NCBI RefSeq assembly: GCF_022984075.1
Contig: NZ_JALAAD010000002.1
Span: 1 to 64,000 of the forward strand
From: Synechococcus sp. C9
Lineage (GTDB): Bacteria; Cyanobacteriota; Cyanobacteriia; Gloeomargaritales; Gloeomargaritaceae
Direction: 5' to 3'
DNA length: 64,000 nucleotides
Positions 11,152 through 54,797 of this stretch are shown one piece after another; positions within the stretch are counted from its first letter, which is position 1, and each line of letters begins with the position of its first letter. Made by a program: the position numbers and the translations under genes. Below the pieces are notes generated by a model, which saw only the letters and a list, made by a program, of their open reading frames with translations, ran no database searches and was not told the origin of the DNA.

Positions 11152-11396
11152 CCTCTGTTCAGCAACGCCGTAAAAACCTTTCTTTTGGGGGTTCGTCATC
11201 AGCAAGCATTATCACTACTTCAAGTTTATGGCTCTGAGCAGTGGGAAGAAGCTCGCAGAAATTACGCGGTTTCAGTTACTAATTGTTGCTAGCCAGAAAT
11301 CAAAATTTGTCCATGATTCCTATAACCTTGCCCGATGGTCAGGCGATTCAGCTTTCGTCAGGTGGTCAAAATATTTTAATTAATTTTCTGCGTACA

Positions 11397-11950
11397 TCTA
11401 GGAGCAGGAACCTGGGGTATATAAGGTTATCGTGTCTAGGAAAGGAGCAAGAACACATAACCATCTTATTAGCGTTTCCTAGACAGGGGCGACTAATGGA
11501 TAATCACTCTAGGCAATCACCCTCTTTATTTATATCTAGGAGCAGGAACCTGGGGTATATAAGGTTATCGTGTCTAGGAAAGGAGCAAGAACACATAACC
11601 ATCTTATTAGCGTTTCCTAGACAGGGGCGACTAATGGATAATCACTCTAGGCAATCACCCTCTTTATTTATATCTAGGAGCAGGAACCTGGGGTATATAA
11701 GGCTATCGTGTCTAGGAAAGGAGCAAGAACACATAACCATCTTATTAGCGTTTCCTAGACAGGGGCGACTAATGGATAATCACTTTAGGCAATCACCCTC
11801 TTTATTTATATCTAGGAGCAGGAACCTGGGGTATATAAGGTTATCGTGTCTAGGAAAGGAGCAAGAACACATAACCATCTTATTAGCGTTTCCTAGACAG
11901 GGGCGACTAATGGATAATCACTCTAGGCAATCACCCTCTTTATTTATATC
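11397..11950 (+). repeat. 138-bp tandem repeat array, four units plus start of a fifth
   Basis: Units begin TCTAGGAGCAGG at 11397, 11535, 11673, 11811 and 11949, exactly 138 bp apart and nearly identical. Because 138 is divisible by three, a frame from 11283 stays open through all units (46 codons each). Each unit holds the inverted pair GTGTCTAGGAAA and TTTCCTAGACAG. The fifth unit is split by MITE-B2 after its first TCTA. A second short array lies at 16374-16550. Confidence 0.9.
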
Positions 11951-12053
11951 TATAGCCAGGTAGGTTAAGGTTGTCGCCTTAAGATTCTGGGAAACCAATG
12001 TGGGGCTACGCCCAGCGACCCATATCATGCCAACCTTTGCCTGCTTAGCTATA
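11951..12053 (+). repeat. MITE-B copy 2 inserted in the 138-bp array
   Basis: It is nearly identical to 2011-2113. It sits inside the sequence TCTAGGAGCAGG of the fifth 138-bp unit, which reads TCTA, then the element, then TAGGAGCAGG, so the TA target duplication is plain. Confidence 0.85.
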
Positions 12054-23389: not shown

Positions 23390-23989
23390 ATGAAAGTCAT
23401 CACCGTCACAGGCTTCAAAGGGGGCTGTGGCAAATCCACCACCGCCATCAACCTGGCGACGTTCTTGAGCGAGCGGGGCAAAGTCCTGCTGGTGGATGGG
23501 GACCCCAACCGTACCGCCCTCAGTTGGAGCCAACGGGGAGCCTTGCCCTATCGGGTGGCGGATGAGCGGCAGAGCTTCAAGTGGGTGGCAGGCAATGACT
23601 TTTTGGTGATTGATACCCCGGCACGCCCGGACTCCAGCGACCTACAGGAACTTGCCAAGGGCTGTGACCTGCTGATTTTACCCACCCTGCCCGATGTGGT
23701 TTCCCTGGAACCGATGCTGGCGACCGCCCAGGCGTTGGGGGAAGCTACCTACCGAGTTTTGCTCACCATTGTGCCCCCGCCCCCCAGTCGAGAGGGTCAA
23801 CAGATGCAGACCGACTTGCAGGCATCCGGCATTCCCGTATTCCAGACCATGATTCGTCGGGCGGCGGGGTTTGGCAAGGCGGCTCTCGCTGGGGTTTCCA
23901 TCCGAGAGATGACCGGGCGTGACCGGCTCCCCTGGCAAGACTATCAAGCGTTAGGTAAAGAAATTCTGGAGGTACTGGCAGATGGCTAA
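23390..23989 (+). CDS. parA: ParA-family partition ATPase, locus 1
   Basis: The 199-residue protein has the deviant Walker A KGGCGKST (residues 10-17), a Walker A' region VLLVDGDPNRTA, and a Walker B DFLVIDTPARP. It lacks an N-terminal DNA-binding domain, so it is of the short type Ib class (ParF-like). Such ATPases segregate plasmids with a small centromere-binding partner. That partner overlaps its stop by eight bases. Repeats upstream suggest autoregulation by the partner. Confidence 0.9.
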   Translation: MKVITVTGFKGGCGKSTTAINLATFLSERGKVLLVDGDPNRTALSWSQRGALPYRVADERQSFKWVAGNDFLVIDTPARPDSSDLQELAKGCDLLILPTLPDVVSLEPMLATAQALGEATYRVLLTIVPPPPSREGQQMQTDLQASGIPVFQTMIRRAAGFGKAALAGVSIREMTGRDRLPWQDYQALGKEILEVLADG

Positions 23990-24530
23990 GTATGGGGACT
24001 TAATCCGCAAGGCGAGGGCAAGCACGGGCGGGACGGAGGAGATAGAAACTAGAAAAATGGAATCTAGTTTAGAAGATGTCAGTAATCAAGATTCTTCAAT
24101 AACAGATTCTAATAAACATCAAACAAGCATCTTAGATTCAAGCAAAACAGATTCATTTATAATAGATTCTAGTAAACAAGATTCTTTGATGCTAGATTCT
24201 GTAAAACAAGAAGCAAGTATCACAGATTCAAGTAAACTAGACTCATCTAAAGTAGATTCTATAAAACAGGATGCCAGTATGATAGATTCTGGTAAACAAG
24301 ATGCTTATGCCAAGGTGGCGATGCGCTTGAGTGCGGAAGCGGTGCAAAGGTTGAAGCGGTGGCGGTTACAGACGGGGTTGCCCTACGAAATTCTGGTGGA
24401 TGTGCTCATCCGGGGGCAGGATACCCCCACCCCAGCCCAGGTGGAGGAAGCTCGCAAAATCCGCCACTCCCGGTTGTTGGAGGGAAAGCGCAAGGCTTTG
24501 GACAATTCTCAGAGAAAACTTGACCAGTAG
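23982..24530 (+). CDS. ParB/ParG-like partner with coding-sequence iterons, locus 1
   Basis: The 182-residue protein has a short basic start, a low-complexity segment (about residues 30-107) of five-residue repeats such as DSSKQ and DSIKQ, then a ribbon-helix-helix-like domain (YAKVAMRLSAEAVQRLKRWR) and a charged tail. Position after parA and the RHH-like domain point to the centromere-binding adaptor. The low-complexity codons also make an exact 15-bp DNA repeat that matches the sequence upstream of parA. So the gene probably encodes both the binding protein and its binding sites. Role inferred, repeats directly seen. Confidence 0.7.
   Translation: MAKYGDLIRKARASTGGTEEIETRKMESSLEDVSNQDSSITDSNKHQTSILDSSKTDSFIIDSSKQDSLMLDSVKQEASITDSSKLDSSKVDSIKQDASMIDSGKQDAYAKVAMRLSAEAVQRLKRWRLQTGLPYEILVDVLIRGQDTPTPAQVEEARKIRHSRLLEGKRKALDNSQRKLDQ
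24074..24304 (+). repeat. 15-bp phased array inside the partner gene, locus 1
   Basis: AGATTC occurs exactly at 24089, 24104, 24134, 24149, 24164, 24179, 24194, 24224, 24254 and 24284, with one-mismatch forms at 24239 and 24299, all on one 15-bp grid. Longer units of the type AGATTCTAGTAAAC begin every 30 bp (24104 to 24284, seven in a row). 30 bp is close to three helical turns. Confidence 0.9.
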
Positions 24531-24579: not shown

Positions 24580-24939
24580 TCAGTTGCTTCTAATCCTGAA
24601 TTTATTGGGTTCGATGATGACGATTGCGCCAAGGATTTCCGATACATCAACCTGGTCAAGAAACTGTTCCAGGGCTAGGTAAATTTCAGTGGCAACTGCT
24701 CTAAACGGCATTCTCAGTATCACCAGTCCGCAATGGGTGTTTGGCGGATAGGTCAATATATTCGCCCAACCAAGGTCACGACTAATAATAATGCACTGTT
24801 CTTTTTGGGCAGATATGAATAAATCCCTATCTTTTAGACCACTTAATCCTGATATTTTAACATAAATTGCTGAATGGCCTTTATCGATAAGTAACCTTGC
24901 TAAACTGAGGGGACAATCTTCATCGACTAGAAATTTCAA
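24580..24939 (-). CDS. DUF5615 PIN-like toxin
   Basis: The 119-residue protein begins KFLVDEDCPLSLARLLIDKG, with IIISRDLGWANILTYPP in the middle, the signature of DUF5615 PIN-like proteins. It overlaps the upstream DUF433 antitoxin gene by four bases. The usual RNase motif Asp residues are present. A TA pair directly downstream of par locus 1 would aid plasmid stability. Confidence 0.8.
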   Translation of the reverse strand: MKFLVDEDCPLSLARLLIDKGHSAIYVKISGLSGLKDRDLFISAQKEQCIIISRDLGWANILTYPPNTHCGLVILRMPFRAVATEIYLALEQFLDQVDVSEILGAIVIIEPNKFRIRSN

Positions 24940-25187
24940 CTAGCTTGCTCCATCCTCAGGAGTTCACCACAATAAGCCAGTGCATCCAGAATTTGTTGAT
25001 GGGTGATGCCGTATTCGTGCATAACTTCTTCATAGGTCATGCCACCGGCGAGCGAGCCAATGACGACAGCGACAGACAGACGAGTACCTTTGATGACCGC
25101 TTGACCATGTTGGATGTGACTATCCACAACAATCTGGTTTGTTTTACCATCCATAGCATTGCTTATTTGGTGCCACGATAACCTCAT
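24936..25187 (-). CDS. DUF433 antitoxin
   Basis: The start at 25187 has AAGGA five bases before it; an internal ATG at 25154 (MDGKTNQ) has no such site. The core reads QAVIKGTRLSVAVVIGSLAGG then YEEVMHEYGITHQQILDALA, the DUF433 HTH-like domain. It pairs with the DUF5615 gene. Its upstream DNA is the orphan octamer array, and its Shine-Dalgarno sits beside that array, so the pair may now be driven by a former parA promoter. Confidence 0.8.
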   Translation of the reverse strand: MRLSWHQISNAMDGKTNQIVVDSHIQHGQAVIKGTRLSVAVVIGSLAGGMTYEEVMHEYGITHQQILDALAYCGELLRMEQAS

Positions 25188-25192
25188 TGTAT

Positions 25193-25248
25193 TCCTTCAC
25201 TCGGCATGATGAATATTTGCACTTTTGCGTACTCGTTAACTGTCTAGG
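25193..25248. promoter_or_regulatory. Orphan copy of the parA2 upstream octamer array
   Basis: Seven octamers in register read TCCTTCAC, TCGGCATG, ATGAATAT, TTGCACTT, TTGCGTAC, TCGTTAAC, TGTCTAGG. They align with the region upstream of parA2 (53942-53997), same orientation, and homology continues to GGGCAGAC. No parA follows; the DUF433 gene is there instead. Confidence 0.7.
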
Positions 25249-25414
25249 AATGGGCAGACTAGTGAGCGATGCACCTAAGGGGAAATGCTACAAAGCTGGA
25301 GATTGGGTACTGCACTTGGGGGAAGTAGGTTGGTTTTTGGGGATGTTTGGTCGGGAGCTAATCTGGGTAGAGCGATGGGTGTCGGGGTGTTTAACCGTAA
25401 TTCCATGTGTATGG

Positions 25415-52672: not shown

Positions 52673-53323
52673 CTATTCCCTGGTGAGCCAGCCTTCGAGC
52701 AACTCTTGCATCAGCGTGGAAAAGTCACCCCCGTCCTGTGCCAACAAGCGCATTTTGACCCGCCGGTAGGTCTCCTTGCGGATGTAAGCCGTCACTTGCT
52801 CATAAGCCGGGTCAGAACGTTTCCCCCTTTTCGCTCTCCCGCCACCCGGTACATCCGAGTTGTCAGCTACCCGATAAACCGGACTTTCATCTTTTTGCGT
52901 ACTCGCCTTGTTCCACTTTTGAGTTTCCATACTGTCAGATATTTGCGTATCTGAACTTTCAGAAGGTTGACTACTCCCGTTGTCAGATGTTTGCAATGTT
53001 GAACTTTTGCGTATTTGCTCTTTCACCCCATCAGATATTTGCATATCTGAACGTTCAGCAGGTTGACTACTTGCATTGTCATCTGTCTGCAATGTCGGAC
53101 TTGTGTATATTTGCGTTTTCACCCCATCAGATGTTTGCGTACTCGAATGTTCGTCATGCCGTATATCTGGACTTTTGCCCTTTCGCCTACTCGCCTTGCT
53201 GTATTGTTGCGTTGTCGCACCTTTGGATGTTTGAGTTGGTGCATCTTCAACAGGGGCAATGTCTCCATCTCCTGGAGATTGTGGATGCTCTGAGGTCTCA
53301 AACAGTTTCCCAAACCGGCTCAT
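52673..53323 (-). CDS. ParB/ParG-like partner with coding-sequence octamer array, locus 2
   Basis: The 216-residue protein overlaps the parA2 stop by four bases. Residues about 23-155 are low complexity with an eight-residue period (for example TQTSDGVK, TQIYTSPT, LQTDDNAS, SQPAERSD). The last ~50 residues (AYEQVTAYIRKETYRRVKMR, then LMQELLEGWL) fit a ribbon-helix-helix domain, as in ParG-type centromere binders. The low-complexity codons create a strict 8-bp DNA repeat identical in phase and words to the sequence upstream of parA2. ParG of TP228 binds ACTC boxes spaced by 8 bp, a useful parallel. Role inferred. Confidence 0.7.
   Translation of the reverse strand: MSRFGKLFETSEHPQSPGDGDIAPVEDAPTQTSKGATTQQYSKASRRKGKSPDIRHDEHSSTQTSDGVKTQIYTSPTLQTDDNASSQPAERSDMQISDGVKEQIRKSSTLQTSDNGSSQPSESSDTQISDSMETQKWNKASTQKDESPVYRVADNSDVPGGGRAKRGKRSDPAYEQVTAYIRKETYRRVKMRLLAQDGGDFSTLMQELLEGWLTRE
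52855..53254. repeat. 8-bp phased array inside the partner gene, locus 2
   Basis: On the + strand, TTGC words occur at 52895, 52943, 52991, 53007, 53015, 53039, 53071, 53111, 53135, 53175 and 53207, all equal modulo 8. Split into octamers, the 400 bases give 50 units, of which by my count 46 begin YYR (TTG, TCG, TCA, CTG, CCG). Recurrent octamers include TTGCGTAC, TTGCGTAT, TCAGATAT, CTGAACTT and TTGACTAC. Confidence 0.85.
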
Positions 53324-53913
53324 AGGTTAATCTCCTTCATCAGTTGTTGATAGTCCCACCAGGCGTTGATGGCATTCCCATCCGCCACGTCGCATACCAG
53401 ACAGCCCTCTAATCCCGCCTTCTGAAAGGCAACGTAGCGGCGGATGACTTGTTCAAAAACTGGTATTTTTTGTCTTTTGAGGGTTTGCTGGGCTTCGGCT
53501 CCCGCTTGGCTGGGATAGGGGGGCACCACCGTCAGCAAGACTTTGTAGCGTTCCGTCGCCAGTTGTCGCAGGGTGGTGATGGTCATCAGCAGGGCATCCA
53601 GAGCCAAGGCATCGGGGGTGGTTGGCAGAATCAACAGGTCGCATCCTTCGCTCAGGTCTTTTAATTCTTCCATTGAGGGACGTGCCGGGGTATCAATCAC
53701 AATATATTCGTGTTCGCGCATTCGTTTGGGAGCTTGATTCTCCGTCACGACCAAGAAGGGGAGTTGTCCCCGTTGCGCCCAACGCAGGGCGGAACGGTTT
53801 GGGTCCCCATCCACAAGCAAGGTTTTGCCGCGCCGATGCAGTAGCCCCGCCAGGTGGATGGCTGTGGTGGTCTTGCCGACGCCACCCTTGAAACCCGCTA
53901 GCGTGATAATCAT
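53320..53913 (-). CDS. parA: ParA-family partition ATPase, locus 2
   Basis: The 197-residue protein has the deviant Walker A KGGVGKTTT (residues 9-17), TLLVDGDPNRSALRW and the Walker B EYIVIDTPARPS. Like the locus 1 protein it has no N-terminal HTH and is of type Ib. The two ParAs share the same plan but differ along their length, so they are separate partition systems, possibly from two fused plasmids. The partner gene follows with a four-base overlap. Confidence 0.9.
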   Translation of the reverse strand: MIITLAGFKGGVGKTTTAIHLAGLLHRRGKTLLVDGDPNRSALRWAQRGQLPFLVVTENQAPKRMREHEYIVIDTPARPSMEELKDLSEGCDLLILPTTPDALALDALLMTITTLRQLATERYKVLLTVVPPYPSQAGAEAQQTLKRQKIPVFEQVIRRYVAFQKAGLEGCLVCDVADGNAINAWWDYQQLMKEINL

Positions 53914-53933
53914 GCCGTTATGTTACCAAATAT

Positions 53934-53997
53934 TTGCGTATGGAAAAACTCAGCATGATGAGTACCTGAACTTTTGCGTACTCGTTAACTGTTCTAG
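53934..53997. promoter_or_regulatory. parA2 upstream octamer array
   Basis: From 53934 the sequence divides into TTGCGTAT, GGAAAAAC, TCAGCATG, ATGAGTAC, CTGAACTT, TTGCGTAC, TCGTTAAC, TGTTCTAG. Four of these octamers, or near matches, recur inside the partner gene and all lie in one 8-bp register. It is 21 bases from the parA2 start. Likely operator and possible centromere; binding is inferred. Confidence 0.65.
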
Positions 53998-54703: not shown

Positions 54704-54797
54704 CGGTTCACCCCCACGGGTGTGGAGACAACGCTCAGAGCCATAGCAGGCCTTTCATGGTAGCATCGGTTCACCCCCACGGGTGAGGAATTGGAAC
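54704..54797. CRISPR. Two-repeat CRISPR-like unit
   Basis: CGGTTCACCCCCACGGGTG (19 bases) occurs at 54704 and 54767, 63 bases apart. The first continues TGGAGACAAC, giving a 29-base repeat like type I-E repeats; the second continues AGGAATTGGA and is degenerate, as terminal repeats often are. The 34-base spacer is 54733-54766. CACCC and GGGTG form the stem. No cas genes adjoin. Confidence 0.45.

Follow-up and report, generated by a model that had tools for sequence, protein, structure and literature searches.

The par locus and its genes

The analysed window comprised 64,000 bp (positions 1 to 64,000 of contig NZ_JALAAD010000002.1, assembly GCF_022984075.1) of Synechococcus sp. C9 and belongs to an 86,895-bp plasmid contig of a 2.96-Mb genome in 4 contigs. 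The two smaller contigs and positions 84001-86895 of the plasmid were not part of the analysis. On the minus strand a parA-type gene (parA2) is followed, with an ATGA overlap, by a 216-aa partner gene that holds a long array of phased 8-bp units within its coding sequence. The following features were distinguished:

53320..53913 (-): parA2, a 197-aa ParA-type Walker ATPase with the P-loop at the very N-terminus
52673..53323 (-): gene of the ParA partner (216 aa), its start overlapping the parA2 stop
53300..53323 (-): conserved N-terminal motif MSRFGKLF of the partner, presumed ParA-contacting tail
52855..53254: in-gene array of 50 phased octamers, about TYRNMTWK on the + strand and about NYRAAYAT on the coding strand
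52676..52828 (-): C-terminal domain of the partner, with profile matches to ribbon-helix-helix (RHH) proteins
53934..53997: short phased octamer array upstream of parA2, presumed operator and part of the centromere
25193..25250: further copy of the segment upstream of parA2, in front of a DUF433/DUF5615 gene pair (24580-25187, -), its association with this system being inferred

ParA2 begins with MIITLAGFKGGVGKTTT, in keeping with a short ParA-type ATPase with deviant Walker A motif and without N-terminal HTH domain. It matched Pfam CbiA (5.1e-14) and AAA_31 (8e-12) and the ParA-like PHROG 164 (1.3e-30), while the match to NCBIfam ParA_partition NF041546 (3.5e-27) stayed below the cut-off of this model (95 against 180 bits). 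Among 894 plasmid records with a relative of this ParA, most of the 60 best listed were cyanobacterial. A promoter scan found no sigma-70-like site at the locus.

The partner consists of the short N-terminal motif, a long linker rich in Q, S, T and D, and the C-terminal domain. The MSRF-type motif and the C-terminal domain were shared with 23 other partner proteins, with F4 invariant in all 24 sequences, and the role of the N-terminal tail was inferred by analogy with type Ib proteins. The single sequence showed no RHH match and no ParB-type match in Pfam, NCBIfam or PHROGs. A profile of the C-terminal domain, however, matched the solved RHH proteins ParG (1p94, 1.8e-4) and a CopG-family protein (9kkd, 1.7e-4). 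AlphaFold2 left the linker at low confidence and predicted for the domain alone two helices after an extended stretch (mean pLDDT 85), as expected for an RHH monomer. Structure searches with Foldseek gave no match at E <= 0.001 and the best VIA-align Z was 4.0; as a monomer model cannot show the dimeric ribbon, this comparison speaks neither for nor against an RHH fold. The directly downstream position of the partner gene, its C-terminal domain and its flexible N-terminal part are those of a type Ib (ParA + RHH) plasmid partition locus.

Octamer periodicity within the partner gene

Within 52855-53254, 46 of 50 octamers began with YYR (the exceptions being TTCCACTT, TCCCGTTG, GTGTATAT and GTGCATCT), with Y at position 1 in 48 of 50, Y at position 2 in 50 of 50 and R at position 3 in 48 of 50 octamers. 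Of 12 TTGC words 11 shared one register, the one at 53196 being the exception. The 8-bp grid described in the first-pass annotation is therefore real, although its statement that all TTGC words share one register was slightly wrong. Comparison with codon-shuffled sequences had been named there as a test, and we found an 8-bp information of 211 bits against 108 +/- 8 for synonymous permutation within the region and 86 +/- 9 for resampling by the codon usage of the window, with 0 of 5000 sequences as high in either case. The peptide thus carries about half of the 8-bp signal and synonymous choice the rest, so that the earlier argument that an 8-bp period cannot arise simply from codon selection on one peptide repeat needed this control. 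Among 40 non-overlapping ORFs of at least 120 aa in the window this gene had by far the strongest signal (z 9.7, best 402-bp stretch), followed by one with z 4.1.

Seen from the coding strand the rule is YRR at octamer positions 6-8. Because 8 and 3 share no factor, each octamer position falls on all three codon positions, and the rule held in each of them (15 of 17, 16 of 16 and 15 of 17; total 46 against 31.3 +/- 2.4, 0 of 5000). Where a third codon position on these sites could be purine or pyrimidine, the required class was found in 30 of 30 cases, although this count is somewhat flattered as register and rule were read from the same data.

The octamers upstream of parA2 (53934-53997) exist and are phased among themselves, but only 5 of the 8 begin with YYR and, contrary to the first-pass annotation, they are not in the register of the gene array (offset 7 mod 8). 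Tested as a 300-bp upstream region with a matrix built from the gene array, this stretch was unequalled in 200 shuffles, which fits the tandem short repeats upstream of type Ib operons. In a scan of 84 kb of the plasmid with the same matrix it was not exceptional (9.0 and 13.0 on the two strands; mean null maximum per strand 13.4). The highest hit outside the gene was the copy at 25193-25250 with 16.2, within the range of the null maxima (largest of 20, 18.9). This segment of about 60 bp aligned with the one upstream of parA2, octamers included, and shares TTGCGTACTCGTTAAC with it, the only two exact places in the genome. Its position in front of the DUF433/DUF5615 pair suggests possible shared control of a toxin-antitoxin-like pair by the partition protein.

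The octamer motif in non-coding flanks of related loci

We collected 75 distinct loci (numbered with the prefix L) with a ParA2- or ParA1-like gene, 10 from named plasmids, 62 from a sample of 386 genomes of the phylum, the two of the window (WIN1 and WIN2), and L027 from a further set of 80 loci, of which only L027-L029 were taken on and only L027 passed the score and completeness limits. WIN2, L127, L132 and L158 were left out of the counts, the last three lacking upstream sequence, which makes the upstream values of L158 an artefact. An RHH partner was defined as a tblastn match to one of three query domains next to parA; the 34 other loci include some with partners of other types (among them WIN1, L111, L131 and L137), and L108, L110 and L138 were reassigned after first being classed as partnerless.

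The matrix built only from the coding array of the window found a phased run, unequalled in 200 shuffles, within the 300 bp upstream of parA in 28 of 37 loci with an RHH partner and in 1 of 34 others, the latter (L111) having a partner of a related type. Downstream of the partner, runs were found in 12 of 37 against 0 of 34 loci. Stretches 900-1200 bp upstream and 700-1000 bp downstream, used as distal controls, gave 1 of 36 and 4 of 36 in loci with RHH partner and 0 of 33 and 0 of 34 in the others; runs are thus not confined to the flanks of the operon, the positive loci being L147 upstream of parA and L017, L018, L026 and L113 downstream of the partner. As the loci are related to each other, some closely, we also grouped them at more than 80% ParA identity, and 14 of 21 groups held at least one upstream run. 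Eight of the 37 loci showed no run of this motif on either flank, though two of them (L024 and L130) had 8-bp arrays of another motif. Apart from L022, L023 and L147, described below, the partner genes showed little 8-bp signal of their own, with codon-shuffle z of 2.6 or less (highest in L148, 2.6, called with an extended start, L119, 2.5, and L131, 2.4). An 8-bp array beside parA is therefore common in this family, and the window carries most of it inside the gene. In L131 (genome G100, contig C1, parA at 1889975-1890547), a ParA1-type locus, octamers of another motif (ACCAGAAA-like) lie inside the partner gene and on both flanks, which makes it a possible third case of an in-gene array, with z of only 2.4 at 8 bp and 4.7 at 4 bp.

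In-gene arrays in a Nostocaceae clade

L022 (Aulosira), L023 (Tolypothrix), L147 (Nostoc) and relatives found in 19 of 217 genomes of that family encoded an RHH partner whose linker ranged from 29 to 233 aa. A matrix made from 22 octamers of the non-coding array upstream of parA in L023 scored the in-gene linkers above all 500 codon shuffles in 19 of 21 distinct linkers. The failures were L183 (29-aa linker) and L189, which is more distant and has runs outside the gene, as seen for its twin L187. Among the 21 linkers, L181 runs off its contig, L170 has a truncated reading frame, and L178 and L022 share ancestry with the training array. L022 and L023 carry a long upstream array of the same octamers (some 35, read by eye), and in L023 a 222-bp stretch of it is 71% and 85% identical to two stretches of the in-gene array, so that for these two the test is not independent. 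A fixed-phase test failed for L179, L182, L184, L185 and L186 (z 0.7-2.0) because their register shifts, and a piecewise test recovered all five. The same non-coding matrix scored the gene of the window at 58.3 in one phase of eight on the coding strand, against -68.9 +/- 15.5 (0 of 1000 codon shuffles), and the motif is thus shared across the two branches.

A comparison of homologues had likewise been called for beforehand, and here substitutions followed the 8-bp grid rather than the codon grid. In five equal-length linkers 17 of 176 core octamer sites varied against 40 of 176 other sites (p 0.0006, permuting within codon position), while the three codon positions varied alike (19/117, 16/117, 22/118). 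With 11 aligned linkers the figures were 73 of 177 against 132 of 172 (0 of 10000 permutations within codon position), with codon positions at 68/116, 62/116 and 75/117, and third positions with a choice obeyed the octamer in 404 of 415 cases over 12 linkers. The core positions (1, 2, 3 and 7) were taken from the non-coding matrix; the linkers are related, so that the counts are not independent events. Length steps in the register-keeping set were mostly 24, 48, 120 and 144 bp, multiples of both 8 and 3, with a 12-bp step in L173 outside the array and a few odd gaps seen once each, which we take for alignment noise. L188 differs by 156 bp, which keeps the frame but shifts the register by 4 bp. 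Both the codon-shuffle and the homologue comparison therefore came out for selection on DNA.

The substitution test was possible only in this clade, as the locus of the window has no close relative: we found no second genome at E <= 1e-55 among the 8 of its order, none for the partner among the 7 of its genus, and none by a short-pattern scan of viral contigs. In a tree of 65 ParAs the ParA of the window sat apart from the Nostocaceae in-gene clade, on a long branch of unsure place. On a reduced tree of 27 ParAs, holding the window together with the Nostocaceae in-gene rows was rejected (AU p 0.00039), but not when L189, which has no in-gene array, was added (p 0.41). Two gains, or one gain and one loss, fit these results.

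A putative centromere inside the gene of its binding protein

We propose, with a probability of about 0.75, that this is a type Ib-like plasmid partition locus whose centromere-like DNA lies mostly inside the coding sequence of the centromere-binding protein. In this view, dimers of the RHH partner sit on successive 8-bp units, as ParG and omega do on their repeats, both on the short array upstream of parA2 (operator, autorepression, and part of the centromere) and on the 400-bp array in its own gene (the main partition-complex site), and ParA2 would act on the bound partner through its N-terminal tail. The linker between this tail and the RHH domain would be disordered and tolerant, so that the array could grow there in steps that keep both octamer register and reading frame (24 bp), and the linker peptide would follow the DNA. 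The array, its constraint as DNA, its match to non-coding arrays of relatives and its recurrence in a Nostocaceae clade were demonstrated computationally, whereas binding by the partner, partition and autorepression were deduced, as neither binding (the gel shift suggested beforehand included) nor plasmid stability was measured here. Most relatives keep the array outside the gene, so the in-gene position is not needed for the family. The interpretation given in the first-pass annotation, selection on DNA binding and a centromere inside the gene for its own binding protein, was thus supported in part, with the corrections on the peptide contribution and the upstream register given above and that on the novelty of the design given below.

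Beyond this, it appears more likely than not that in at least two branches of cyanobacterial plasmid partition loci the main centromere is the coding sequence of the centromere-binding protein, with the linker peptide dictated by the DNA grid (three 8-bp units equal eight codons) rather than by protein function. Gene and site could then not easily be separated by recombination, assembly of the partition complex on the gene may feed back on its own expression, and the same protein may also control the DUF433/DUF5615 pair through a copied operator. This would show a protein-coding stretch shaped mainly by a DNA-binding lattice, and would turn unannotated hypothetical proteins on cyanobacterial plasmids (pSYSM, pSYSX, Nostoc, Planktothrix) into predicted centromere-binding proteins with predicted sites. 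Synonymous recoding should in this case destroy the proposed centromere without touching the protein.

An alternative, which we consider unlikely, is that the in-gene octamers bind the partner but serve only regulation (autorepression or a transcription roadblock), with the centromere proper being the short array upstream of parA2 or a site elsewhere. The upstream array alone resembles the usual type Ib layout (PMC5016525), and the copy in front of the DUF433/DUF5615 pair points to promoter control. However, there are fifty octamers in the gene against eight upstream, a repressor needs few sites, and in L022 and L023 the array exists a second time as a long non-coding array. Even less likely, the array might be a passive product of slippage or unequal crossing-over at a tolerated linker. 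Tandem arrays grow this way, and octamer slippage plus the frame would also give the length steps observed, but the constraint is position-specific within the octamer and blind to codon position, and the same motif is kept in non-coding flanks of loci whose ParAs are only about half identical. Similarly improbable is binding of another protein, such as a plasmid replication initiator or a nucleoid protein; iterons are also short phased repeats, but the arrays track the presence of the RHH partner next to parA. Selection on an eight-residue peptide repeat alone, although about half of the 8-bp information survives synonymous permutation, was rejected by the codon controls and the third-position counts, and relatives with short partners lack the peptide and keep an array outside the gene.

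Comparison with known partition systems

The TP228 ParF-ParG-parH system (type Ib) shares the small ParA, the downstream RHH partner with unstructured N-terminal tail and the short repeated boxes, and ParG was among the best PDB profile matches (PMC7308502, PMC5016525). Its parH and operator lie outside parG, and ParG has 76 aa in 1p94 against 216 aa of the partner described here. The parH site consists of tetramer boxes with AT-rich spacers; we observed an 8-bp period and, in L022, L023 and L024, a 4-bp sub-period, but without a parH sequence for comparison this does not settle whether the arrays are of that kind. In pSM19035 the RHH protein omega of the delta/omega system binds tandem short repeats (PMC5016525). 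These are 7-bp heptads outside coding sequence, and omega was only a marginal profile match (0.38 and 0.47). The par loci of the Synechocystis plasmids pSYSM and pSYSX encode the closest partner domains on plasmids (65% and 62% identity over 48-49 aa) and a ParA with 57% identity, and have octamer runs upstream of parA, but their 77-aa partner is without array.

Type Ib centromeres are placed upstream of the operon (PMC5016525). Single parS sites inside genes of their own binding proteins are already described, namely B. subtilis parS-359 within parB (PMC4442127), SCP2 parS within parT (PMC12260392) and SCP1 parS1 within parB1 (PMC13245405), so the design is less distinct than the first-pass annotation had supposed. 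In repABC replicons parS also lies within other ORFs, for which positive selection has been suggested (PMC9040568). Those are single sites of non-RHH proteins (an 18-bp inverted repeat in SCP2), whereas the partner described here had no ParB-type match in Pfam, NCBIfam or PHROGs, and its gene holds, instead of a palindromic parS, a direct array of 50 phased 8-bp units in the disordered linker of an RHH protein. In searches of open-access full text, which miss most subscription papers, we recognized no report of a phased array in the coding sequence of an RHH partner, and this extended array is what appears to be new.

Further repeats on the plasmid

A second par locus was found at 23390-24530 (+), with a ParA 52% identical to ParA2 and a 15/30-bp repeat at about 24086-24310 within its partner gene. 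Synonymous choice favoured the 15-bp period (z 6.0, 0 of 1000), but as a multiple of three it is less easily told from a peptide repeat, and the array was not traced convincingly outside its gene. At 54705-54785 two copies of GGTTCACCCCCACGGGTG lie 63 bp apart, looking like a remnant of a CRISPR array of the I-E kind. Four 138-bp tandem copies at 99% matches were found at 11396-11952.
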